Below, in pieces: positions 5,989-55,612 of a stretch of 64,000 bases of DNA (positions are counted from its first letter, which is position 1; each line of letters opens with the position of its first letter). The stretch comes from Henckelia pumila (Eukaryota > Streptophyta > Magnoliopsida > Lamiales > Gesneriaceae). Under the pieces are notes generated by a model that was not told the DNA's origin, did no database searches, and worked only from the letters and a program-made list of their open reading frames with translations. A program made the position numbers and the translations under genes. The DNA lies in assembly GCF_033568475.1 (NCBI RefSeq), contig NW_027331831.1:11718001-11782000 (forward strand). Direction: 5' to 3'.

Positions 5989-6067
5989 TTAGCTAATTAT
6001 CTGGTCACAGTCTGTGGAATTTAGCTCTTGGTATTCCTCAAAATAGTGGCGCTTTCTATATTTCACC

Positions 6068-6300
6068 TAAATATATAAAATTTATTTACAACATGAAAGT
6101 AGAGTTCAAACAATAATAAATGGAGCGTAAATAATGACATCCACACAAAATATTGTTGTAATTTTAATAATTGTTAATCATTTATAACATAAGAAATAAT
6201 AATATTACTAATAAATATTGTAAAAATAATTATATATAAGTATAACTGCATAAGCCTTTATATGAAAATAATGATGATAATAATAATTAGCAAATATAGC
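6068..6300 (+). repeat. Dispersed repeat, copy 2
   Basis: Uninterrupted counterpart of the repeat at 480-1342. Bases 5989-6067 and 6301-6700 are AT-rich spacer in which nothing was recognised. Confidence 0.5.
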
Positions 6301-6816
6301 AGTATATTTATATTTACTAGTAGTAGGCTAGTAGCATAAGTAATATTGAAAAAATATTTATAAGCTAATAAGTAATAACACTAGAACCAAATAGCAATGT
6401 CATTAGTATTTATATTCAAATATTATAATTAATTATGTAATAAAATTTCCACAATATTTATATTAAGTTATAGCTTTGATTAATGTTATTTTAATATTAT
6501 TATTATTACGATAATTTCTTAAGGAGACCAATATTTTAATATAAATAAATATAATAATTTAATCGGTATAAAAAAATTAAATTAAACTAGAATCCCAGGA
6601 ACTCGAATCGTTATATTAAATTAAAATTTTGTTTATATTAATTAATTTAACAAAAACCTAGAGGCTAGAGCAATAGAAATTCTAGAACTTTTAGACTAGT
6701 TATCTTGCAAGTTTTCCTCTGGTTCACATTTTGACTTTTCAAAGTTATCGTCTTTAATTTCTCCATCCTCTCCTCTCTCCCATCGTTTCTTGAATCTTGC
6801 TTCACTTGCTGCAATC

Positions 6817-7809
6817 ATGTCGGCTCCCAGCCTCAGCCTCTGCGTGGTATTGTCCGATGCAAAGCGCATAATCAAGGCCAACCGCGGCCATTTCTTGGCC
6901 CTCGGACTCCTCTTTGCCCTCCCTCTGTCCTTCTCCACCGTCGTGTACCCTTCTCTTTCGCAGCCCACCTCGATTGTTTCCATCTATAATCGACTTCTGG
7001 CATCCTCCTCCCCGCCTGCGCCCGAAGACGAAAACCCCCCTGTCGACGGATCATCCGATGCTGTTTTCACCCTTCTTTACTCCCTTTTGGTACTGCTCTT
7101 CTCCCTTTTCACAACCGCATCGATCACCCACAGCACCTGGAATGGGTTCTTCGGTCGCCCCCTGAAGGTCACTTCCTCTCTTAAGTCCATCCTGGTTTCG
7201 TTTTTCCCTCTCGCTGCCACTTATATTGTGTTCCAGCTGATTCTTGGGTTGATTATGTTTGCTGTTGGAGGTCTCTCCATGTTGATGTATGGTGGTATCT
7301 TGTTATTGGGACCTAGAATCGATTACGACAGCTTGTATTTTCTGGGTCTCATTGTCGTGATCACGGTTTTGCTAGTGGGGACGATGATTTACATTCAAGT
7401 TGAGTGGTTTTTGGCCTCTGTGGTAGTTGTTCTTGAATCAAAGTGGGGCTTTGAGCCACTTAAAAGGAGTTCTTATTTGGTTAAGGGGATGAAGTGGATT
7501 GCATTCTCGATTCTTGTCTATTTTGCGGTGTCCATTGGCGTTATGTCGGCTTTCTATTCAAGTTCAGTGCCTGGTTTAATTAGTAGTGGATGGATCAGTT
7601 GGGAGTTCGGCCTTCTAACTGTTATTTTCACAGCCATTTCAACTGCCTTGATGCTTTACAGTGTTGCCGCGACTACTGTGTTGTTTATACATTGCAAAGC
7701 ATTACGTGGGGAGTTGGCGTTGGAGACAGTGGACGAGTTTGCTCCGCTGTATGTTCAATTGCCATTCGATGCTGATGAGAAGGCTCCTAAAGTTGTTTAT
7801 GTTGTCTAG
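6817..7809 (+). CDS. Multi-pass integral membrane protein, plant family of unknown function
   Basis: The coding region is intronless and gives 330 residues. The ATG at 6817 is chosen because the open frame upstream has no earlier ATG. About six hydrophobic segments are visible (near residues 26-44, 83-105, 122-165, 173-206, 228-248 and 262-291). A Pro/Glu/Asp-rich loop lies around 65-80, and conserved-looking WGFEPLKRSSYLVKGM and CKALRGE stretches lie near 210-225 and 293-299. From memory this resembles the plant family loosely annotated as polyadenylate-binding protein 1-B-binding protein, whose real role is unclear; no enzymatic motif is seen. A GC-rich start contrasts with the AT-rich flanks. 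Decayed pieces of a second copy lie at 9311-9520 and 11870-12052. The gene converges on the BUB3.3 remnant next door. Confidence 0.85.
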   Translation: MSAPSLSLCVVLSDAKRIIKANRGHFLALGLLFALPLSFSTVVYPSLSQPTSIVSIYNRLLASSSPPAPEDENPPVDGSSDAVFTLLYSLLVLLFSLFTTASITHSTWNGFFGRPLKVTSSLKSILVSFFPLAATYIVFQLILGLIMFAVGGLSMLMYGGILLLGPRIDYDSLYFLGLIVVITVLLVGTMIYIQVEWFLASVVVVLESKWGFEPLKRSSYLVKGMKWIAFSILVYFAVSIGVMSAFYSSSVPGLISSGWISWEFGLLTVIFTAISTALMLYSVAATTVLFIHCKALRGELALETVDEFAPLYVQLPFDADEKAPKVVYVV

Positions 7810-8360
7810 AGCCCTGAGTCGAGGTTAGCAGCTTTCGGCTTGTGATATAACTGTTTGGTGCTTTGTTATGTTGCTTTTGTATTACACCTGGTGTGGTTAA
7901 TAATGTCTGTATATTAAGCTAAACCTGTCTGAACCATGTAGTATTTTGAAGATTTATATATGGTTGCATAAACTTTGGCATGTTTCTTAAGGGTTGATTG
8001 TATTGTACTTTAGCTTCGACTGTGTTTCATTTCAAAAGTGATGCTGATGAATTAGTTTTGTATCCTATGGCGAGTATTATGCAGGTTGCAGTAATTTCAA
8101 TTCTTGTTGCTAACAACCTTGGGCAGTAAAAGAAAACATTGTCCTAGTTTTAGTGAAATAGAAACCAACCTAAATTCTACTTTTCGCGCATATCATTTCT
8201 CATGTCATTCCACCAAGGGAGATCGAGGAAATGAGCAGTTCTCGAAACAATTGATTAACGTTAGTGAAAAGGAGAGAGCACTTGGACTTGAAAACTTGAG
8301 GTTGAATCGATGAGATTACTAGGGATGTTATTGTACGCATTGTATTGTTCTTGTATGCTG
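7810..8360. other. 3' UTR of the membrane gene and convergent spacer
   Basis: The stretch after the stop (about 7830-7910) resembles the stretch after the decayed copy at about 12100-12145, so the duplication includes the 3' UTR. From about 8190 the sequence aligns with the BUB3.3 downstream region at about 13722. Confidence 0.5.
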
Positions 8361-9310
8361 TCATCTCTTTGAGCTAATGGGCACAAACAGATTTGCCATT
8401 TGATGAACAAATATTTGAGGTGGCTCTTCTCTGTCACGATGAAACATGATTTCACGAAAACATGTGTTTCGATGGTGTGGGGGCCAAGGGATAAATATCT
8501 AGAAGTTTAATCCTCATGGGAAGAACTCGGGAACCTCACCCCCTGTATTCAACCTCTCGTTAATTCTGAAAGAGTATTTCAGTAAATTCATGGATCTAGT
8601 TAGGATTATCTATCAATCACAAGTCATTCCTTGTCATCGTCTATATTACGATATTAAACAAGGGCATGGTAAATAAGGAAAGCGATAAAACATGTGATAA
8701 AACAAGACAATTTCCAGTCCAATTAGACAAACCTCCATGTAGCTATACAAAAATTTACTCATTGGATCAAGAAACAAGTGAAAAAGAGCTAACGAAACCG
8801 GCATGGGGAGGTAAATCTGCTAACTTTTCATTATTCTCATGGTAAGTAAAATGTGATCATGGTTGTATGCCAGAGAAGCAACACTGTTTAAATACCTGGG
8901 TAACTGAAAATCAGGTACATAATAAAAAATATGCTGAACTAGAACAAATAACAAGTCATATATGATGGTGAAATGAACACATTGGCAGATGAAATTTACC
9001 TCCATGAGCAGTCTCTAGCTCAAAACATCCATACCGTAGCATGACCTTTCGTTGTCACCAGAAATTAGCACCATATATGATCATATTCTGAAACGGAAAA
9101 GGTTCTTCTGAGATTTTTTGAAGTTTTATGACAGAAAACTGTAAATGCGACAGAAGCATATGCTGGATTAAAAGCGATAACATTTATGGCTTCGTGATGA
9201 TGTGATCCCTTTTTGTCCATTGGATGACATCTGAAAAGTATATCTACTAACAGATGCTCAAGAAACAAGTGAAATGTATCTCAAAACACACACCAAGCAG
9301 GACAGAGTGA
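8361..9310 (-). pseudogene. BUB3.3 duplicate, 3' half only
   Basis: This minus-strand segment aligns with exons 9 to 6 of the intact BUB3.3 gene and the introns between them. The exon 9 equivalent (8431-8361) still reads EEPPQIFVH. The exon 8 equivalent (about 8905-8825) has lost roughly 25 bases inside the last WD repeat and one base at the splice donor. Exon 7 and 6 equivalents lie near 9075-8995 and 9240-9155. Exons 1-5 are missing: similarity ends near 9310, where a fragment of the membrane gene begins. It cannot encode a full propeller. Confidence 0.85.
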
Positions 9311-9520
9311 ACCCCTCGTAGTATTATCCAATACCAAGAGCATAATGAATGCCAACTGCTGTCACTTCTTAGCCCTCTCGCTTCTCTTTGTTCTCCCTCT
9401 ATCCTTCTCCGTAATCATGCGCACGCCTTTCTTGCAGCCCCTGTCAATTATTTTCGGATAGTGGTTTTTGTCCTCCTATACCATGCTTGTATCCGAAGGT
9501 GAAAGTCCCCGTTTTGTCAA
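9311..9520 (+). pseudogene. Membrane-protein duplicate, N-terminal fragment
   Basis: The translation VLSNTKSIMNAN then HFLALSLLFVLPLSFS parallels residues 11-40 of the intact protein, and the frame stops at 9459-9461. DNA similarity continues to about 9520 across the Pro/Glu-rich loop region. There is no start codon equivalent. Its junction with the BUB3.3 remnant marks the boundary of a tandem duplication. Confidence 0.8.
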
Positions 9521-10129
9521 TTGCGATTTGATATATCATGATATGACGTCGGATGAACCATCGTGATAACCGATTCTTTTTATTTATTATTATGAAATGG
9601 AAAAGAATCTATTTCAGTTTCTAGCTAGGAGACCCATCGATGTATAATTTTCTCATGTTATTAATGGATCAATTTTCAACTCTTTTTCTATTCAAATTAT
9701 TTGAGTGGTAAAGAACAAAAACTTCACATTTGGCAACAATTGAGTACGTAGCCTGTAAGTATAAAAATTGGTCATTTGTCTTCAGCAATCTAACACTATC
9801 CAATATATATTCAAAACATCAAAATCATCATATTTCATAACAATGTATCATTCATTTACAAAGATTGATCCTTCTTCAACAATGTATACTTTTAGAACAT
9901 ATTTAAGAACAAAACCCTACAAATTGGGGATAAAATATTTAAACCGAGGAACTGTAAAAAAAAAAAAAATACGAAACTTAAGAAGAATGATTCTAAATAT
10001 TTCGACAAATATATAAATAAAAAAATAACTAATTATGCAAACAAGAACGGTAGCAACACATTTGAGCTACAAAACCCTAAAAAATTGGACACACGAAAAT
10101 ATTAAAGATTCATAGAATGAGGACCAAAA
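9521..10129. other. AT-rich spacer within the decayed copy
   Basis: No gene or clear transposon was recognised. It forms part of the roughly 2.35 kb that separates the two surviving pieces of the decayed membrane gene. Confidence 0.4.
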
Positions 10130-10333
10130 TTATTCATCAAAACGATAAATTCTCTCAGTTACTCGCGACAAATCATATATAGTGGTCGATTTCAAAAATG
10201 GAAAACAAATTTCACATGTCTTCGATTTCTTCGTCTTCTTCACAGTGGCCGATTTTTTTTCCTTCTTCACTTTACAAGAGCATGCAACTGACTTCTCTTT
10301 TAAATGTTTGCTTCGTCCCGTCGCCGGAGCCAT
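10130..10333 (-). CDS. Small basic hypothetical ORF, 67 aa
   Basis: ATG at 10333-10331, stop at 10130. The product is Lys-rich in the middle (KVKKEKKSATVKKTKKSK) with a CEIC pair and a C-terminal LSRVTERIYRFDE stretch. The family is not recognised. A more GC-balanced, UTR-like sequence precedes the ATG. It could be a young orphan gene, a first exon, or chance. Confidence 0.25.
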   Translation of the reverse strand: MAPATGRSKHLKEKSVACSCKVKKEKKSATVKKTKKSKTCEICFPFLKSTTIYDLSRVTERIYRFDE

Positions 10334-10888
10334 TTTCTGGACTGTAAACCTTGTCGCCAAAGATCACTGATTTCCTGCAAGAACAATCTGTAGAGCGAGG
10401 GAGAGAAACTCTGATCGTTCTTAATTTTTTGTTTTTTCTTTATTTGAAAATTTCTTGTTTAAAGGGTATTGTTTGGGTATCAAATGAGTTTAGGGACATT
10501 TTTGTAAACTCGAGTTGAAACAAAGAGCAGGCTTTTGTCAGGGAGTTAGAACAAAGAAAATGTATGAACGAAGGACTGAGGAAGGATTTTAGTTTTTTTT
10601 TTTTTAGGGATTTATCACAAATTTTCCCATTATATATATAATATGAATTATATTTAAAATAATCAGAATTTTCATTTAAATAAACTTCTTTTTTTTTTTG
10701 AAACCTTTAAATAAAATTCTTCGAAAATGTAGTTTGATCTTATTATAAATAAGTTATAGTTTGGTTTAGTTCATTTTTCAAAAAAAAAAAAAAAAAAAAC
10801 CAATAAATGTGATTTGATTTCAATTTTTGGTCGAACTAAACCACACTTGAACATCGAGAACTTGTATTTTGAAAAGGTTTTGAAGTAA

Positions 10889-10990
10889 GTGGCATGGTAG
10901 TCTCAATTCCATTCTGTGCATAAACTTTTTCCAATAAGAGATTGTTCGAGTTCGATTCAGACGGCAAAAAATTCCAACCATGTATTTAAT
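10889..10990 (+). mobile_element. Possible SINE head
   Basis: TGGCATGGTAG (10890-10900) is one base off the A-box consensus and GAGTTCGATTC (10948-10958) fits a B box. A T-rich then A-rich tail follows to about 11020. No target duplication was identified. Confidence 0.28.
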
Positions 10991-11092
10991 TTTTTTTTTA
11001 TAAAAAAAAAAAAATCAATGGCACGATCATTATAGAGAGCTATTAGCCTAATATATAGTATATATAGAGTATTTTTGTTAGCGTAATTAATA

Positions 11093-11620
11093 CTTCCTTT
11101 GTCCCATATATATATATATATATTGTCCTCTTTTCTTTTTCACACGGATTAAAAAAAAATTATTGGAAAAGTAAATTTTATATAGACTTCCTATTTTATC
11201 TCTATTTAATGTATTAAAAATGATTGCACAATTTTCAAGGTGTAGTTAATAGGGATATATTAGTAAAGAAGTGTAAAAAATATTACTCCATCCGTCTCAA
11301 TTATATAGTTCACGTTTCCTTTTTGTTTGTCCCAAATATATAGTCATATAAGATATTTAGTAATATTTTATTACACTTCTTTACTAATATACTCCTATTA
11401 ACTACACCTTGAAAATTGTGTAATTATTTTTAATACATTAAATAGAGATAAAATATGAAGTTTGTATAAAATTTATTTTCTCAATAATTTTTTCTTAATC
11501 TGTATAAAAAAAAGTATGACTATGTATTTGAGACTGAGGGAGTACTAAATATGGTATATGACTATATACTTAGGACAAACAAAAAAAAACGTGAACAATA
11601 TAATTGGGAAATAGGAGAGA
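11093..11620. mobile_element. Stowaway-like MITE, outer copy, split
   Basis: It begins after TA with CTTCCTTTGTCCC and ends near GGAGAG at about 11620. Its body (11093-11285 plus 11543-11620, about 270 bp) matches the reverse complement of the inner element. Removing the inner element at a TA restores a continuous match, so the inner one jumped into it. Confidence 0.7.
11286..11542. mobile_element. Stowaway-like MITE, inner copy, 257 bp
   Basis: Terminal inverted repeats CTCCATCCGTCTCAA and TTGAGACTGAGGGAG, flanked by TA on both sides (11284-11285 and 11543-11544). It has no coding capacity. It is inserted in the opposite orientation to the outer element, giving arms of about 145 bp (11140-11285 and 11365-11512) able to form a long hairpin. 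Confidence 0.75.
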
Positions 11621-11869
11621 ATATTAATTATCATGATCACCGTATACTTAACGCAACAATATAGTCGTTTACTTAATTGCATGCCTACATGCATATATTC
11701 AATTACTATAATCTAATTTGCCTCAGTTAATTCTTCACTCGCCTTCAAAGTCAGCAATTTTAATTTGCGAAAATGTTGGTACTGTTTCTTCCGTCAGAAA
11801 TCGAAGAAGAATCCCTATTTATTGCCTCACCTGATCTCCCATTAAAATCCACACATTCTTCGGAGTGCT

Positions 11870-12052
11870 GCTTTCATAGTAATCGCAACTATCTTGAAGC
11901 TTTACAGCGTTGCTGCTACTGCTGTTTTGTTTATACATTGTAAAGGATTACGCGGGGAGATCGCCGATGAGGACGTTGAACTGTTGTCGAATGTTCGATC
12001 GATATTAATGTACGATGGTTATAATGAGAAGGCTCATAAAGTTGCTGTGTAG
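11870..12052 (+). pseudogene. Membrane-protein duplicate, C-terminal fragment
   Basis: It is open for 61 codons to a TAG at 12050-12052. LYSVAATAVLFIHCKGLRGE parallels residues 280-299 of the intact protein, and the tail NEKAHKVAV parallels DEKAPKVVYVV. The middle of the protein (about residues 60-270) is missing between this piece and the N-terminal piece. The downstream bases also resemble the intact gene's 3' UTR. Confidence 0.85.
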
Positions 12053-13035
12053 TAGAAATGTAGAATGGCATGGCTTCATGCATGCATCTTGTTTTGTTAT
12101 ATATTTGTTTAATTGGTGCTTGTTTTGTTGTTTTTGTATCACATGCATGCAAGAAGAGTCAACAATATTATAACTTATATATCTACGCGCGTAATGAAGG
12201 TTTATGTGTCACCTTGTATTATATATCTGATACATGGCGCTATATATATTGTGTTGGGGCTGATTCTGGTATATATTCATGATCTTCTTCTCATTTAGTT
12301 TTGTTTATACATTGTAAAGGATTATCCCCAAAAATTAAAATTTTTTTAATACTATATGTTTAATATTTTTAGGAATCTTAGTATATATAATAACGGCCCC
12401 TTTGAAGTTAACCAAAGTTCCTGCAGGGTTAGTGGCGAAAGCCCCTCTATGTACCTTTTATTATCAAGCTTCGATTCCTACTCCTACGGCCTACCTGCTC
12501 TCATCTTAATTTTAGTTTTTCCCCTCCCATTCTCTCTTTTGTTTTCTTTTTTCCTCCTCTCTCAACAACAGACATAATCTGTTCTTATTATTTGCCCCCG
12601 TATTTTTTAACTAAATTATTATTATTATTTTTTATTAATGATAAATTATTTATTTTCTGAAAATTTTAAAATTTATTCTCTAAAATTATATAAAATAAAA
12701 TGACATTATAATAACAAATAAAATGGAAGAAAATCATATCATATTAATTGAAATTTATCATCTAAAATTATGCACACTTTCCTTGTTTCATATATAATCA
12801 CTTTTTCATTTTTTTTCTCTAAAATATATAGACTTTTACGATAACTAATACTATTTTTTCCAATTTTTTTAATTAATATGCTCATATTTAATTGAGATTT
12901 TCATTAAATATATAGATTACTTTCGATAACTTTTTTTATACCATATAAGCATTCATTAAATAAGGATAATATTGAAAAGTTATTTACCAATTGACATTTC
13001 CAAAAAAAAAAATTGTTAATATATGTGAAAAAGAA

Positions 13036-13079
<44 letters not shown>

Positions 13080-13884
13080 TGAATTGAATATAAAATAAAA
13101 TGATATATTCATATATATATGTGTGTGTGTGTGCGTGAGATGGACATATATATATTTTTAAAATAATAAAATAACATATTTGAAATAAATAAAAGAAAAT
13201 GAGATACAATAGAGATATACAATTGATGTTTAATTATTTGAATATAACTGATACTTTAATTTTTCTTTTTCCTTTGAATCTTGTGTTTAGCTTGTAGGCG
13301 GCCCCCTCAAAATCTTCTTCCTTGGAATCATTTCCCCTGCTTCTCCTTGGTACATACTCTCTTTCTCAACCAAACTCTAGATTTCTACAAGTTAAACACT
13401 ACACTTCCACCATCTTTTCGATCATCTAGGACGATTGAACCATTATAAACATACACGCGCATCTCAGTTTATGCAATTATCAGTGAAAATACTCATGGAA
13501 CAACGAAAAATTATTATACTGGAAAATTAAGAAAAAAGGGGTGGCACAGGCACATTAATCATTATCATGAATCCATGATAATCCATGTATTTCCATAAAA
13601 TACTACCAGTACAAAGCATTTGGTGACTCTGTGCGATTCATAATCATGAGAATCATTACACAAATAAACTTGAATCATCGTTTCTACATGATGAGAACTC
13701 CGAACTTATAATTTCCACTCAATCATCTCACGTCATTTCAAAAGGCGAGATCAAGAAAATTAGCTGTTACCAAACAATGGATTACGGTTGTCGTGAGGAA
13801 GAGAGAGCACTTGGACTTGAAAACTAGAGGTTGAATCAATGAGATCACAAGGGATGTTACTAACACACATTGTTTTGTCTGCTG
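12053..13884. other. AT-rich convergent spacer
   Basis: No gene was recognised. It holds a 27-bp exact second copy of the decayed gene's sequence (11924-11950 repeated at 12298-12324), a (TA)n run at 13039-13075, and short GT repeats near 13120. From about 13722 it aligns with the region beside the BUB3.3 remnant. Confidence 0.5.
13039..13075. repeat. (TA)n microsatellite
   Basis: An uninterrupted TA dinucleotide run of about 18 units. Confidence 0.9.
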
Positions 13885-16800
13885 TCATCTCTTTGAGTGG
13901 GTACCATCCATTTTATGCACAAATATTTGAGGTGGCTCCTCTCTGTAATAATGAAACAAGATTTCATGAAATTATGTTGCAGTTTGATTGTTTAATGGGC
14001 GACAGACGAAAATCAAGAATTTTAATATTCCTATGAAGAACTTCAACACTTCAGCACTCAAATTGTAAAGATAATCAGTAAAATTTTTCAGTAAATTCAT
14101 GTCAATCACAAATCAATTCTCATTATCGTCTATACTACCATGTTAAGAATGGGTATGCTATATAGTGATGTAATAAAAAAGGGACGATGAGGTTTCAAGG
14201 GTGCATTTGTAAAAGTCACTCAACATGCCCCTTAATCATGATTCACACTATAATAGTTACTCAGCTTAAAGATACAACGAATAATCAGGAATCCAAGTGC
14301 TAGAAGGAATATAGTTTTAACAATGTTCTGGTAAAAGATGCTGGAATTCTTTAAATGTACCGTGAACCTAGCATAGCCATACAAATAATTTACTCAAATA
14401 ACTCCTGCTAACCTTTCCTTAGCCTCGTGGTAAGTAAAACTCGATGCGACGGCTAAAATTTGTCCATCACGGTTGTATGCCAAAGAAGCAACGCTGTTGG
14501 GATATCTGGGCAACTGAAATCCAGGCACTCTTCATGAGAATATAATTAAAATTTGATGAATTAAAGAATATAATAAACCATTTATGATGCTGAAATGAAA
14601 ATAATTGATAAATGACACGGATGAAATTTACCTCCATTAGCAGTTTCTTGCTCAAAACATCCCATACTATAGCATGACCTTCACTGTCCCCAGTTATGAA
14701 TGCACCATATATGCTGAAATAGGAAAAGGTTGTTCTTGTGAGAATCGAGATTCCGAAGGTTTATGACAAAAAACTGTATAAATGAAAGAGAAACATACGC
14801 CGGATTAAATGCGATATCATTTACCGATACATGATGACGTGATCCCTTTTTGGCCTTTGGATGACATCTGAAGGTGTATCTGCAAATGCAAAATGCAATT
14901 GAAATGAATCTTAAAACACGCCAGGCAGGACAGTGAATGGTCAAAAAACGTAAGCCACAACAACTACACGTGCTTTCGTTGATTCTAGGAAGAGTAGTTA
15001 GGAGATAAAACCTTTCTAGTTTTGGAGCAGAAGGTAGGTTCAAAATTTTTTAAGTAAGATAAATATTTGGCAAACGGAATATAGTCAGCACTCAGCCGCT
15101 CAGGTGGCATCAACTTGCTGGAGACACTAAAATAATCTTATCATTCCACCTCTTTCTCAAGAAGGCATATTGAGAAGATTTAAATGCCACCATAAATGGT
15201 TGCATTTATTATATTTACAGTCTAAGACTCCAAATGATTCTAGCTTAGGTTAAACTGTTGAGAACTCAAGGATAATTTCATCGTGTATCCTTGGAACTTA
15301 TGAAGAAAGAAACAAAGGTAACAGAATAGCAGGTAACAAGTTAGAGATATGAAACATTGACATAGCTAGCAATAAAAGCATACGTAAACAACCTTTTGCA
15401 ATCTAGAATTCTGATGGTAGTGGTTGTGGCTCTCACCAGTTTAACTATACGGAATCCAATATACACAGTAAATACATCATTAGCACACCGTAAAAATATA
15501 CTGACCCCTCATTCTTTGAGTTGGATTTACACAGATATTCCAAATCAACCCGTCCATCAATTGACCCAACAGCAAATCCTGCAGGAATAACCATGATAAG
15601 ATGGTTGATTCAGAGGCTCGGTCACAAGAACATTAAGAATGGATTTGTAACGGATTTAAATATTAGGAATGTGGAAGAGAACACCTCCTAAAAAGTAAAG
15701 CAAAATTTTAAAATATTAAGTGTGTTAACTTTTGAGTTCTTGGACAGCTAAAGGTAATTTCATGCATTTCAAATAAATGTCCAGGGACAACTAAAATCCA
15801 ATACCTTCCAGCTCTGCATTTGAGCGGACACATTTTACATTAATGTCCCGGGATAACTCCTTCGCTTGGAGTGATCGATCAAAGTAGCGCAAGTCATATT
15901 TGTGAACTGACGATTTGAGAGCAACAACAAGATGAAAGCCAAAGAGTGATATAGACTCGACTTCTGCATGCAGATTTCTCAAGAGGCCAACAGAACTTGT
16001 AGAGCGTGCATCCCAAAACATAACTTTTTTATCCAAACCACCAGTAATAATCTGACCTACACACACATCCAAGTGAGTTTATGATGATACTGTCAGGATT
16101 GAATAAACGCAACTGTCGAATAAGCGCTTTGGAATTTTGGTTGGCTAGGCATTTGAAAAATAAATTTGCGTTTTCCTCAAATATAATTGCCACCCCAGGC
16201 TTGCGAGTTGCAAGAATTAAAACATTTCCATAAACAATTACAAAAAATTTATTACCACTCTTTATAGTAAATGACACTTCACATCCTTCTAGCTTAAAAA
16301 ATAAGTTTCTCGATGAAAGAAATACCACAAAGAAATAGCAATATGCAGAAGATAAACAAAATTCATGTTACAATCTCTTACATGTTTCCTCAGAATATTC
16401 AATACAAGTTGCTAAATCATCATGATGTCCTAATCTCTGGCTGGTTCCCGAACACATGTCATACCTAGGAAATTTTAAGTCAAAGGTTTCACGATACGGA
16501 GCATGCTCAAGATGCAAACAAATTATCATGAGACATGAATAGATAAAAACGAGAGAATCAGATTGCTCTGCAGGAAACACAATGTTATGAAATGCTTGAG
16601 GATCTAGCTGCTGCTGTACCAAGTTACAATCTTTTTAAGTTTTTATCCTAGACGACATTGAAGTTGGCATATAAAACAGTAATCCTTATCAAAAGCAGAC
16701 AACAGGAACACAAACTACCAGTTTATATGACAGAACGCATCCAAAAAGGCCATCGAAGGGCAGCCACAAGTAAACCAAAAAGTTAATTTAACACGGAAGG

Positions 16801-17399
16801 TACAGATTTTTTTCAGAAAATATTGAAATGATGCCCACCTTGTTTTAGTGTTACATTCCTGCAATTTGTTTAGTGTCTCGTGAAACATTGGTTCAAGAAA
16901 TAAAACACTAAAACCAAACGTTAACGTTATCTAATGGTTGTCAAAAATTAGTATTTTCTCTGAGAAAAGATGGGGGGGAAAATCATTGTTTTGGGCATGG
17001 GCATAACTAGCATTGGTGCAAACACACTGCCACGAAGGTAACTATAAATTATCAATGCACAAACCTGAGAATGGAACCATCAGAATTAGCAGACACAGCC
17101 CTCGTCTCACTCTCAAAACAACAATCAAGAAGAGCTTCCCCATCCGTCTGAGCTTCTAATCTTAGCTCACGTTTATCCACATCGTATAGACGAAGATTCT
17201 GTTCAAAACACATGATGCATGCCACTCTTAAACAAATACGGAATATTTCAGAACCAGTATTAACAGAGGAATAACCATTGGCAAAAACACTAACAGAATC
17301 CCATGAAGAAACCAGGAGATTGTTCGAGGATGGCGAAAATCGAATCCTGGAAATGGCGTCTTGGATCTGGTTCTTGGGATTCAAACAATATCCGTTCAT
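13885..17399 (-). CDS. BUB3.3: BUB3.3-like WD40 mitotic checkpoint protein
   Basis: Nine exons were built by hand: 17399-17295, 17198-17065, 16464-16382, 16056-15805, 15578-15506, 14879-14799, 14713-14632, 14513-14413 and 13942-13885. All introns are GT-AG, all junctions keep frame, and the total is 969 nt for 322 residues. The start is the first ATG in frame before a DAISRIRFSP stretch. WD-type landmarks follow in order: LLVSSWDS, LRLYDVD, LLDCCFE, GLDKKVMFWDAR, KYDLR, AVGSIDGRVDLEY, YTFRCHPK, ITGDSEGHAIVWD and ASLAYNRDGQILAVASS, ending with EEPPQIFVH. BUB3 proteins are seven-bladed propellers that work with BUB1/BUBR1-type partners at kinetochores. This sequence is closer to the diverged plant BUB3.3 than to BUB3.1/3.2. 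Exon 8 uses a weak donor (GTTAGC) but is supported by the last exon's fit. A broken duplicate of the 3' half lies at 8361-9310. Confidence 0.9.
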
Positions 17400-18458
17400 G
17401 CTCTGGAAATGCAAGAGAAGCTATTGAATAGGACAGAGGGACAGAATTTGGGGGAAAATTGTGATTCTTGTGAAGAACCCTAAACTGGAATTTTTTTAAA
17501 AAACGAAACACCGAAAACAAAAATTGCATGCAATACAAAGTTCCCGCTTAAATTGAATATATTTGCTAAAATTATCCACCAGGTAGCCCAATTTCAACAT
17601 GGGCCTTACTTTATATATCACAAAATACACACGTATAATAAATGCTAGAATTATAGACAAGCAATGCATTCATACAAAATAAAATAAAATAAAAAAGTTC
17701 GAATTAGTTATGATAAAAATTTTAAAAAAAACATTAAATATGTGATTTAATTTTTTTATAACAGCGATAATGATTTTTTTTTTTCTCGTTGAATAAAATG
17801 TCGAACAAATGTTGAACGATTTAAGTTATACTCATACGATGTTATAAAACTTATTCATGCATTATTGTTAAACTTTAATGTTTTTAAAATTATATATTTT
17901 GTTAAAGAATTTGTTATAATGTATACTAGCAAATCAATTGAAATAATGACAAAAGAAAACAAATTAAGCAAGATTTTACAATATGAACTTTTACTATATG
18001 CATGTGTAGTATATGTTATAAAAGTAATTGCTATAATCTTCATTTTTAACATATTGCAGTAGCCAGTAGCATCCTGCATCCATCTATTTGTTGACATTAC
18101 AATTTAATAATCCAAAACATTTTTGTTTAATATGCAACATAATATTATCCCTCTAAAATATAAACAATTGCCCTAGATCAAAATTTTTATCACTGCACCA
18201 TATTTAAAACAATTGCGCATTAAAACTCAGGCATTAGGGGAAGAATTCTCAAAAGTGCCAGTCTCATTTGGATCATGAAACAGAAATTTGTCAACTATAT
18301 ATACAGAATATGCTATATTTTCCCAAACAAAAGAGAGAAGATTCCATAGCAAGAAGAAAGAAAGAAGAAAAACTCAAGAAAACAGACAACTATTTCTGCG
18401 ACTCTCCATTAAAGTGACAACTCCAGGGCTGGCTCAGACATCACATGTTTTCACCCAC
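17400..18458. other. BUB3.3 upstream / MINE1 downstream spacer
   Basis: This should hold the BUB3.3 promoter and the MINE1 3' UTR, since both genes run leftward. It is AT-rich, with no transposon or extra gene recognised and no specific promoter box assigned. Confidence 0.5.
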
Positions 18459-51001: not shown

Positions 51002-52034
51002 ATGCCTCCCAGACCGATGAACAGACGTGAGGAATCTACACCTACACCTCCACCTCCACCTCCACCTCCGCAGAACCCACTTGCAGCATTGGAGCAGGCC
51101 AATGCTACTTTGATGGCAGGGGTTACTGCTCTGTTAGAGCAGCAGGCTTCACGTCCTAGAATGTCCCATGAGGAGGACGTAGCTGAGTGGTTCCAGAAGA
51201 AGGGGCCGAAGGAGTTCATTGGTACCACCGATCCTTTGGTGGCTGATGGGTGGATTCGTTCTTTGAAGTCCATCTTTGCATATATGGGGATCACAGATGC
51301 GGACAGGGTGAACTGTGCGACGTATATGTTGAGGGGAGACGCAACTCTTTGGTGGGAGGGTGCTGCCAGGGGAGTACACCTCCCTACACTGTCTTGGACG
51401 GAGTTCAGGCGTATCTTCTACGCCAAGTATTTCACGGAGGATGTGAGGAGTCGCATGATCCAGGAGTTTATGAGTCTCAGGCAGGGGGACAAGTCAGTGG
51501 TTGAGTATGTGAGCCAGTTCGAGAGGGGCTGTCATTTTGTGCCTCTGATTGCAGACAGTCCACCGGAGAAGATGAGGCAGTTTGTGGAGGGACTGAGAGC
51601 GGATATCAAGCACGACGTACGTATGATGGACGTCGCTACATATGAGGCGACCGTTAGTAGAGCACTGAGGTCAGAGGAGGGTAGGAGAGAGATGCAGCGA
51701 GAGCAGCAGGGGAAGATACAGATTCAGTCGGGGTATCAGCGACCATCTTCGCAGCCTCCTGCAAAGAAGCAGTTTACTGGGCCGTCTAAGGGCCCGAATC
51801 CGCAGCAGAGGCCACAACAGTTGAGGGGCGGGGCCCCTAATGCTATAGGTTTTCCTACTTGCCCGAAGTGTCAGAAGATGCATTCGGGATCTTGTCTGTT
51901 GGGAGCAGGAGTTTGTTTCCACTGTAGGGAGCCAGGGCATCAGATAGCTAACTGCCCGAGGAAGAAGAACACCGCTGGTAGAGTGTTCGTCATGCAGGCA
52001 GAGGAGGCAGACCCAGACACCTCCTTGATCACTG
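51002..52034 (+). CDS. Gypsy gag (capsid and nucleocapsid)
   Basis: The ATG at 51002 opens 344 codons up to the probable splice donor; if unspliced, the frame stops at 52051 after 349 residues. A proline run (residues about 13-23) is followed by a Retrotrans_gag domain (about 60-215) with VAEWFQKKGPKEFIG, RGDATLWWEG and DKSVVEYVSQFE. A Gln/Pro-rich basic linker and a CX2CX4HX4C zinc knuckle (CFHCREPGHQIANC, from residue 305) follow. Gag packages element RNA into cytoplasmic particles. The end EEADPDTSLITG continues naturally into the pol frame after removal of 52035-52238. Confidence 0.9.
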
Positions 52035-52238
52035 GTATATCTTACCTCTAGTATTTTATAATTTTTCCTTTGTTTAAGAATTTCGTGTTTCTTGTGGAAT
52101 TGTTGTTATTTGGGTTACCTATCTGCATGTTAGAATAAGAAGCATGTTTTACTTGTGATTAGAATTAAGGGTTATTAGTGTCTCGTTGGGGGAAAGTTTA
52201 GTAGTGGCATGAAGTTGTTGGGAATTTTCTGCGTGCAG
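52035..52238 (+). other. Probable intron between gag and pol, 204 nt
   Basis: Donor ACTG|GTATATCTT and acceptor TTTCTGCGTGCAG|GGAGA. Splicing joins LITG to RILVGG in frame, the usual sequence before the chromovirus protease. The segment is T-rich like plant introns and begins with a short tail ending in TAG, so unspliced RNA would give gag alone and spliced RNA gag-pol. 204 is a multiple of three, so an inserted stop-containing segment is an alternative. Confidence 0.6.
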
Positions 52239-55200
52239 GGAGAATTCTAGTTGGAGGAAACTCCACGTTTGCGTTGCTAGATTATGGGGCTACGCATTTG
52301 TTTATCTCCCTGGAGTTTATCAGGCAGATAGGTATCACACCTGAGATTATTGACAGTGGGTATGATGTTACTATGCCGTCAGGGCAGATTATTTCGACCT
52401 CGAAGGTCATTCGAGAACTGGAGTTGGAGCTTCAGGGACACTCCATTCGAGCAGATGTGGTGGTTTTGCCATTGAGTGGTTTTGATTTGATTTTGGGTAT
52501 GGACTGGTTGGCAGTCAATGGAGCTTCGATTGACTTTCGTCGGAGATCAGTGTCAGTGAAACCATCAGAAGGCGACCCGTTTACTTTCCATGCATCTCAG
52601 AGCAGTGATTTTCCTCAGGTGATATCTCTTATTCAGGCGAGGAAGTTGGTGAGACGGGGTTGCCAGGGGTTTCTAGCAAGTATTGTCACGGCCTCAGAAC
52701 CATCTAGCAGATCATTATCAGAGATAGAGGTGGTTCGTGACTTTTCGGATGTCTTTCCGGAGGATGTTGCAGGAATTCCACCAGTGAGAGATGTGGAGTT
52801 CAGCATCGACTTAGTGTCAGACATCGTGCCTATCTCTAAGGCACCGTACAGACTTGCTCCTACCGAGATGAAAGAGTTGAAGGAGCAGATTCAGGAGTTA
52901 TTAGAGAAAGGCTTTGTTCGTCCTAGCTTTTCTCCATGGGGAGCTCCGGTGTTATTTGTGAAGAAGAAGGATGGCAGTATGAGACTGTGCATCGATTATC
53001 GAGAGCTCAATAGGGTCACAGTGAAGAATAAGTACCCACTGACGAGGATAGAGGACTTATTTGATCAGTTGCAGGGAGCTTCGGTGTTCTCCAAGATCGA
53101 CCTGCGATCTGGTTACCATCAGCTGCGAGTTAGAGAGGCAGATGTGTCCAAGACTGCTTTCAGGACACGTTATGGGCATTACGAGTTCTTAGTGATGTCA
53201 TTTGGGATGACCAATGCTCCAGCGGTTTTCATGGATCTCATGAACCGAGTTTTTCAGCCGTATCTTGATCAGTTCATTATAGTCTTCATTGATAATATCT
53301 TGATCTACTCTAGGAGCATTGAGGAGCATAGACAACATCTGCAGACAGCCTTGCAGACTTTGAGGGAGCATCGTTTGTATGCCAAGTTCAGCAAGTGCGA
53401 GTTTTGGCTCGAGCAGGTGGCGTTTCTTGGCCACTTTATTTCGAGAGATGAGATTGCAGTGGATCAGTCGAAGGTTGAGGTAGTGCAGAATTGGGGTTTT
53501 TCGAAGAATGCTTTAGAGATTCGCAGTTTCTTGGGTTTGGCAGGATATTATAGGAAGTTCATCAAGGGTTTTTCCTCTATTGCAGTACCCTTGACTTCCT
53601 TAACCAAGAAGAAAGCGAAGTTTATCTGGAGTTCAGACTGTCAGAGGAGCTTCGATCAGCTGAAGGAAGCACTCACCACTGCACCGGTGTTAGCGGTGAC
53701 AGCACCACACGAGGAGTTAGTGGTGTACACCGACGCGTCTAAGCTGGGTTTAGGCGCAGTACTTATGCAGTGTGGTAAGGTTATTGCTTATGCGTCCAGG
53801 CAGTTGAAGATTCATGAGCAAAACTATCCGACGCATGACTTGGAGTTAGCAGCAGTGGTCTTCGCTTTGAAAATCTGGAGACACTATCTGTATGGAGAGA
53901 AGTGCAAGATTTTCACTGATCACAAGAGTCTCAAGTACTTCTTCACTCAGAAGGAGTTGAACATGAGACAGCGCCGATGGTTGGAGTTGGTGAAGGACTA
54001 CGACTGTGACATTAGCTACCATCCGGGTAAAGCTAATGTAGTGGCCGATGCTTTGAGTCGGAAGTCGTCAGTGGTATCGTATTTGTCAGTGCAGTTACCA
54101 CTGCAGAGTGAGATTCAGAGGTTTGGTTTGGAGTTTTACTCGAGTGGGCATGCACCGAGCTTGTCAGTGTTGACGGTGCAGCCAGTTCTGCGAGATCGGA
54201 TCAGGGATGGACAGCCTACTGATGAGGAGTTGCAGCGTTGGAGACAGAGAGATGAGGCCAAGGGTAATCTTCTGTATACAGTTGTGGATGGCATTGTTCA
54301 GTACCGTGGTAGGATGTGGGTACCGAACATCGATCAGTTGAGAGCTGAGATCTTAGCAGAGGCTCACACATCTCCGTACTCCATTCACCCCGAAAGTACG
54401 AAGATGTATCGAGATTTGCAGCTACTGTATTGGTGGCCCGGAATGAAGAGAGACATCGGGAGAGTTGTGTCAGAGTGCTTGACTTGTCATCAGGTCAAGG
54501 CTGAGCATCAGCATCCAGCAGGACTTCTTAGACCTCTTCCTATTTCGGAATGGAAATGGGAGAATATTACGATGGACTTTGTAGTTGGATTACCGAGGAG
54601 TGCCAGAGGTTGCACAGCTATTTGGGTGATCGTGGATAGACTCACCAAGTCAGCTCATTTCTTACCGGTGAAGACTACTTACTCGTTGACACAGTATGCA
54701 GAGCTTTACATCAAGGAGATTATTAGACTGCATGGCATACCAGTGTCGATAGTATCAGACAGAGATCCGAGAGTTACGTCTACGTTTTGGAGGAGTTTGC
54801 ACACTGCATTGGGGACTAGACTTTTGTTCAGTACAGCGTTCCATCCCCAGACAGATGGTCAGTCTGAGAGAGTGATCCAGGTTTTCGAGGATCTATTGAG
54901 AGCTTGTGTCATCGATTTTCAGGGCTCGTGGGAGACTAGACTGCCATTAGTGGAGTTTACCTATAACAACAGTTTTCAGTCGTCTATAGGTATGGCTCCT
55001 TATGCAGCATTGTACAGGAGGAGGTGCAGATCTCCTGTGCATTGGGATGAGGTCGGTGAGAGGATTTTACTTGGACCTGAGATTGTGCAGCAGACAACTG
55101 ATATTGTGACACAGATTCGGGATCGCATGAGGACTGCTCAGAGTCGTCAGAAGAGTTATGCAGATACTCGACGACGAGATTTGGAGTTCGCTGTAGGTGA

Positions 55201-55612
55201 TCACGTATTCCTGAAGGTGTCACCTATGAAGGGAGTAGTGCGATTTGGCCGGAGAGGCAAGCTTAATCCGAGATATATAGGGCCATTCGAGATCTTGGAG
55301 AGAGTTGGCACGTTGGCCTACCGTTTAGCTCTACCACCAGGGCTAGCGGCAGTGCACAATGTATTCCATGTATCCATGCTTTGGAGATACATCTCGAACC
55401 CGTCACATATGTTGGATTTTGAGCCTCTTCAGTTGACACCGGAGTTAGCATTTGAGGAGAGGCCTATACGGATCTTGGCTAGGGAGGAGCGGAGGCTTAG
55501 GATGCGTGTCATACCGATGGTCAGAGTCCAGTGGCTGAATCACTCGGAGGAGGAAGCTACTTGGGAGACCGAGGCAGATATGAGGACTCGCTACCCGGAG
55601 TTGTTCGGGTAA
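52239..55612 (+). CDS. Gypsy pol: protease, RT, RNase H, integrase, chromodomain
   Basis: One frame of about 1120 codons. Residue numbers count from the TTG at 52274. Aspartic protease near 1-110: the LDYGATH motif keeps the Asp but has Tyr where Ser or Thr is usual. RT about 200-360, with LCIDYRELN and [11 protein letters not shown]; the YxDD-type motif reads FIDN (Asn at 341), a likely loss of catalysis. RNase H from about 480 ([12 protein letters not shown], Asp 487). Integrase zinc region about 695-760 (ending [11 protein letters not shown]) and DD35E triad Asp 768, Asp 829, Glu 865. A C-terminal chromodomain-like segment ([15 protein letters not shown]) ends in RYPELFG. The frame has no internal stop, so the damage is by missense only. 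It would otherwise copy and integrate the element. Confidence 0.92.

Follow-up and report, generated by a model that had tools for sequence, protein, structure and literature searches.

A decayed, probably partial tandem duplication with breakpoints in both members of a convergent gene pair at a BUB3.3-like locus of Henckelia pumila

In the genome of Henckelia pumila (Gesneriaceae; assembly GCF_033568475.1, 884,658,702 bases in 133 contigs), a single-exon gene for a membrane protein, here called M, converges on a gene of the BUB3/RAE1 family, here called B, and broken copies of both lie between them. We describe the 64,000-nucleotide stretch of contig NW_027331831.1 (C77) that holds them, C77:11718001-11782000, referred to as the window; positions are those of the window unless a contig is named. 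Along it the order is M (+, intact), a copy of the 3' part of BUB3.3 (B', -), membrane-gene fragments (+) and B (-, intact), the same alternation of intact and broken genes given in a preliminary description of the sequence: M is open, B' is broken, fragments follow, and B has nine exons. Complete copies of M and B thus flank partial copies in the order M, B', M', B, as in a partial tandem duplication. In the features listed below, L labels denote fetched stretches, L038 being the M-family copy at C77 11670.7 kb (a 5' piece) and L017 that at 11715.9 kb (a 3' piece); UTR stands for untranslated region.

6817-7809, plus strand: M, intact single-exon membrane-protein gene of 330 amino acids (open frame; full-length paralogue on contig C1)
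8169-9305, minus strand: B', BUB3.3 pseudogene with the 3' flank, exons 9-6 and 54-58 bases of intron 5 (alignment with 13700-14933; lesions)
9303-9317, no strand: junction, intron 5 of BUB3.3 fused to codon 4-9 of an M-type gene (alignment ends meet)
9303-9510, plus strand: Ma, M-type 5' coding piece without start codon or promoter (149/201 to M 6828-7039)
9582-10660, no strand: dispersed repeat sequence (right edge approximate)
10612-11087, plus strand: Mb distal 5' flank, relative of L038:4962-5412 (396/436 ungapped)
11088 to about 11609, no strand: insert inside the Mb 5' flank, containing an inverted-repeat element whose arms are 11136-11280 and 11367-11511 (not in L038)
11610-11853, plus strand: Mb proximal 5' flank and 5' UTR (215/223 to L038:5410-5673)
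11856-12255, plus strand: Mb coding end and 3' UTR, the coding part before about codon 267 being absent (329/357 to L017:4915-5291)
12240-12324, plus strand: scrap with M-type letters (self-comparison; resemblance to L018 near 3295 by eye)
12325 to about 13312, no strand: dispersed repeat (repeat match)
13885-17399, minus strand: B, intact BUB3.3-like gene of nine exons and 322 amino acids (hand-made model; RAE1/BUB3 structure matches)

M consists of one exon and has no introns. A Pfam profile search with it returned no Pfam match and no conserved domain, and the paralogue on C1 shares 53% of its amino acids. Part of the distal 5' flank of M (6073-6272) recurs at 479-547 and 1213-1328, with 86% identity over 70 bases and 69% over 136 bases. 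For B, the hand-made model places exons from 17399 down to 13885 with GT-AG borders at all eight introns. Its predicted protein matches solved structures of RAE1 chains over residues 13-307 (E 1e-24) and of yeast BUB3 over residues 13-294 (E 6e-13), and with a match that spans most of its length B fits the BUB3/RAE1 WD40 family. The name BUB3.3 follows the preliminary description, and we take the gene to be putatively BUB3.3-like by that label. Arabidopsis BUB3.3 (AT1G69400) is described in PMC12595034 as a checkpoint protein associated with the kinetochore, the mutant being wild-type-like.

The partial copy B' is related to B well beyond its exons. Local alignment of 8169-9311 with 13700-14937 gives 856 identities at 1055 ungapped positions and runs through exons 6-9, introns 5-8 and the 3' flank, and BLAST E values of 3e-74 and 4e-54 place the likeness far beyond chance. 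As a fraction, mismatches come to 0.19 in the 3' flank and 0.16-0.22 in introns 5-8; for exons 6-9, where 253 of 297 positions (~85%) are identical, the range is 0.10-0.18. Aligning the two BUB3.3 3' regions, as had been proposed, therefore yields a match that is continuous across introns and 3' flank, and the earlier claim of a duplication at the DNA level holds good. Retroposition is ruled out, introns 6-8 and part of intron 5 being retained and alignable. Origin from another paralogue is likewise ruled out at the sensitivity of a genome search (884.7 Mb) with 7810-9311, in which the three matches were the query itself and two pieces of B. The broader statement that introns and UTRs align between the units is right in part: introns do so for BUB3.3 but not for the intronless M, and the M-type 3' UTRs can be aligned but the 5' flanks not convincingly.

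B' has clearly decayed. Frameshifting insertions and deletions have struck exon 6 (+1), exon 7 (-2, +1, -1) and exon 8 (-17, -5), the donor of exon 6 reads AT in place of GT, and eight inserted bases separate exon 7 from its acceptor; exon 9 keeps its frame, and exons 1-5 are missing. Substitutions between B' and B number 11 of 98, 12 of 98 and 20 of 100 at first, second and third codon positions (third against the rest, P 0.08), a pattern that drift in one copy could produce. M is oriented towards B', itself on the opposite strand, and by this geometry alone read-through from M might yield an RNA antisense to BUB3.3 that damps its expression. Such a role would be compatible with any of the origins discussed here; we find it scarcely credible, as the exons of B' are only about 85% identical to those of B and its other parts drift freely.

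A clue to the origin of the arrangement lies at the point where B' stops. B' ends at 9305 (14933 in B) by BLAST and at 9311 (14937) by local alignment, 54-58 bases upstream of exon 6. For the start of similarity to the M family, local alignment gives 9303 (M 6828), and BLAST gives 9317 (M 6843) with M as reference and 9307 with the copy at C77 11670.7 kb. The truncations of B' and Ma coincide within ~14 bases, in codons 4-9 of the M-type gene, so that both partial copies share the single boundary, 9303-9317, that a partial tandem duplication would leave. A self-comparison of 6000-18000 with the window showed no second set of BUB3.3 exons 1-5 and no copy of the M 5' flank beside Ma. It had been proposed that a duplicated pair of units each lost the opposite partner; two independent losses would have left separate boundaries, and the one shared junction speaks against them. 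Reciprocal loss is also unneeded, because a single junction whose breakpoints fall one in each gene cuts both copies short from the outset, and the missing halves were probably left uncopied and did not disappear afterwards. What survives of the proposal is its end state, in which a single open copy of each gene is left, M and B being on different units on either side of the fragments.

The same edges bear on a further possibility, that the 1.14-kb stretch of B was copied into a break beside an existing M-type remnant, for example by repair from a neighbouring template, and that no M-BUB3.3 segment was ever duplicated. Clearly common sequence is indeed limited to B' (1.14 kb) and Ma (~0.2 kb), and on the left the B'/B homology breaks off sharply at 8169/13700. 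We nevertheless judge such a patch highly improbable, since the start and promoter of Ma would have to be lost separately and the head-to-tail fit of order and orientation would be left unexplained.

The membrane-gene pieces on the plus strand derive from at least two copies, Ma and Mb, plus a small scrap. A single membrane gene split by repeats is ruled out, the two copies having different affinities. Mb retains distal 5' flank, an inverted-repeat insert, and proximal flank with 5' UTR to 11853; it then jumps to the coding end at 11856, where M residue 266 is the first to be matched, and continues through 3' UTR to 12255. Its 3' coding part is identical to L017 at 129/138 positions, to L018b at 118/140, to L018a at 94/133 and to M at 99/141. 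In four-way resampling (2000 replicates per set), Mb grouped with L017 and L018b and away from M in 1997-2000 replicates of two sets that included the C1 paralogue, and in the set of Mb, M, L017 and L018b it went with L017 in 1935/2000. Mb is related most closely not to M but to remnants of the M family that lie 14 and 59 kb upstream (pooled identity 92.5%), and the fragments do not form one former copy that is sister to M. For the 5' region of L038, 41 matches were listed (40 of 157 candidates scored): itself, two pieces of the Mb flank, two short M-family coding matches (at 11627.8 kb and Ma) and 36 short matches to a dispersed repeat, which involve its last ~50 bases.

Between Mb and M, the 5' flanks show no convincing similarity: their alignment score of 84.8 falls below the 95% level of 200 shuffles (127.6), and BLAST found only matches of 11-29 bases (E 0.003-0.40), against E 4e-77 for the B'/B control. 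By eye, the ~60 bases before the start codons of M, L018 and L038 look related. The 3' UTRs of M and Mb can be aligned, with a score of 73.6, where none of 200 shuffles exceeded 60.6. The preliminary description acknowledged that fragments from other paralogues would contradict it, and this is what we find for the 3' piece Mb, which groups away from M; the 5' piece Ma may still stem from M. Over shared columns Ma is identical to M at 76/99 positions and to L038 at 77/99, with L038 identical to M at 81/99. Resampled with M, L038 and the C1 paralogue, Ma joined L038 in 1334 replicates and the C1 paralogue in 666; with M, L018 and the C1 paralogue it joined L018 in 1388, the C1 paralogue in 355 and M in 257; and with M, L038 and L018 it joined M in 1227, L018 in 667 and L038 in 106.

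Relative divergence separates the two kinds of fragment further. Divergences were pooled over ungapped positions, expressed as Jukes-Cantor (JC) distances and compared by Fisher test. Mb against L038 and L017 together gives 940/1016 identities (JC 0.079), and the noncoding parts of B' against B give 568/717 (JC 0.243), so that the B'/B split is older than the Mb split (P 9e-16). At a plant rate of 6.5e-9 per site per year these correspond to ~19 million years for B'/B and ~6 for the Mb split, of which the order alone is usable. The 3' UTRs proved a poor clock for M and Mb, with 108/142 identities (JC 0.288) by local alignment and 88/158 by MAFFT (P 6e-7 against B/B'), and dating by them was dropped since the two alignments disagree. 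The 3' coding parts of M and Mb are further apart than the exons of B and B' (P 0.0005), a difference that we do not rely on because the ends are hard to align. The view that Mb is not the twin of M from the event that produced B' rests instead on the 5' flank of Mb, on the way Mb groups and on its recent separation from the upstream copies.

M itself appears to be the last member of a decaying array. M-family pieces lie upstream on the plus strand of C77 at 11596.2, 11625.3, 11627.8-11630.1, 11670.7 and 11715.9 kb; no complete M-type gene was seen in the stretches read (parts of L017, L018, L037 and L038), and a genome search with M listed no complete M-type frame except M on this part of C77. 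The 5' piece at 11670.7 kb and the 3' piece at 11715.9 kb are about equally close to Mb, and on that ground we guess that they are the two halves of a single gene.

We consider it likely that the present map arose by a partial tandem duplication with breakpoints in both genes at the end of this array, with no reciprocal loss needed. A small duplication would have occurred at the right end of the local array, where an M-type gene faces B, with one breakpoint at least ~12 bases into the M-type coding sequence and a second within B, in its intron 5. Were M the source of Ma, the segment involved would measure ~2.5 kb (6829-9305), and tandem duplication of such a segment leaves M whole, B' and Ma each cut at the 5' side, and B whole. 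The left copy would end in a BUB3.3 gene without exons 1-5, which is B', and the right copy would begin with an M-type gene without promoter or start, which is Ma; the outer genes would be complete because each continues into unduplicated flank. The inner copies, broken at birth and presumably without function, would then have decayed, with no stage at which two working pairs existed. Later, Mb would have been placed between Ma and B and would have lost nearly all of its coding sequence, and repeats would have been inserted.

An amended form of the earlier model predicts an identical map. In it M and BUB3.3 were duplicated as a complete pair, after which a single deletion took away exons 1-5 of BUB3.3, the sequence beyond and the start of the second M, with Mb or Ma as the rest of that gene. 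It is parsimony only that separates this sequence of events, which requires one event more, from a single duplication. Several results weigh against the latter: by local alignment the M/Mb 3' UTR distance is not separable from that of B/B' (P 0.43), which fits the amended model and leaves room for M and Mb to be of equal age; the resamplings give no stable answer for the parent of Ma, with its about 200 bases; Ma is somewhat further from M than the exons of B' are from B (P 0.06); and no copy of the 3' half of M from the duplication is seen in the right unit. The amended model remains unlikely in our view, as the Mb 5' flank is unlike that of M and Mb groups with other copies, and even so it would involve a single deletion and not two reciprocal losses.

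Some smaller features complete the picture of the window. The scrap beyond Mb shares an exact 27-base repeat with it (12298-12324 and 11924-11950), and the inverted-repeat insert at 11088-11609 has one other place in the genome among the matches listed (C1:73.26 Mb). At 51002-55612 two long plus-strand frames, of 349 and 1112 amino acids, are presumably the gag and pol of a Ty3/gypsy-type retroelement.

Pieces of both genes also occur elsewhere in the genome. Sixty of the 70 listed matches to M (e.g. L011-L016) are dispersed fragments that cover only M residues 113-243, most of them with stops, and six that were aligned with their flanks have several hundred flank bases in common. Among the fragments are at least eight pairs of opposite orientation, spaced 1.9-5.3 kb, as though they sat in the inverted arms of a repeat; around two fragments (L020 and L021), one region held many short inverted repeats and the other none. 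Four other places hold a BUB3.3 piece that runs from intron 1 into exon 4 (source 15987-17236):

C1:6752294-6753526, 93% identity
C2:53795507-53796753, 90% identity
C115:383811-384005, 98% identity
C99:38284-38478, 98% identity

All four copies share one starting base; 15987 is the end of two of them and 17042 that of the other two, and the C1 copy was aligned. A single fragment seems to have been captured and later multiplied, perhaps with the help of a mobile element. At C4:71039260-71039391, another possible remnant matches BUB3.3 residues 269-312 (50% identity, two stops). That the convergent M-BUB3.3 end of the array is a spot where both neighbours are repeatedly broken into spreading pieces, with B' and Ma as the local ones and the BUB3.3 piece and the M-type fragments as the distant ones, carried probably by mobile elements while the checkpoint gene stays intact, is an idea that we regard as decidedly doubtful.

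Reciprocal, or complementary, loss of duplicates requires that two complete units exist first. The locus shares its end state, one complete copy of each gene on different units, but the shared breakpoint makes a stage with two complete units unnecessary here. A map that looks like complementary loss can arise from one duplication with both breakpoints in genes, and gene order taken by itself can therefore lead to too high a count of reciprocal losses; a simple check is whether both truncations have a common junction and whether all fragments of a gene come from the same copy. The late-feathering K allele of chicken, a 176,324-bp tandem duplication described in PMC2542384 in which PRLR and SPEF2 are present both complete and as partial copies, is alike in having a breakpoint in each of two neighbours, the two partial copies meeting at the junction and the complete genes lying outside it; it differs in its size, in being recent and in holding the 5' parts of both genes, whereas the present case is old, decayed, perhaps ~2.5 kb long and made up of 3' parts from a convergent pair. 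A review (PMC3449122) puts partial and chimeric copies at 56-86% of young duplicates in Caenorhabditis elegans and Drosophila melanogaster, and for Drosophila yakuba PMC5460883 gives 1116 tandem duplications that produced 76 chimeric genes against 66 whole-gene duplications. The copies in those sources resemble ours in that they were never complete and have breakpoints inside genes, but they are young or polymorphic, whereas here both partial copies are disabled, and array members and repeats have moved in. The locus is a decayed plant case of partial tandem duplication, an ordinary kind of event.

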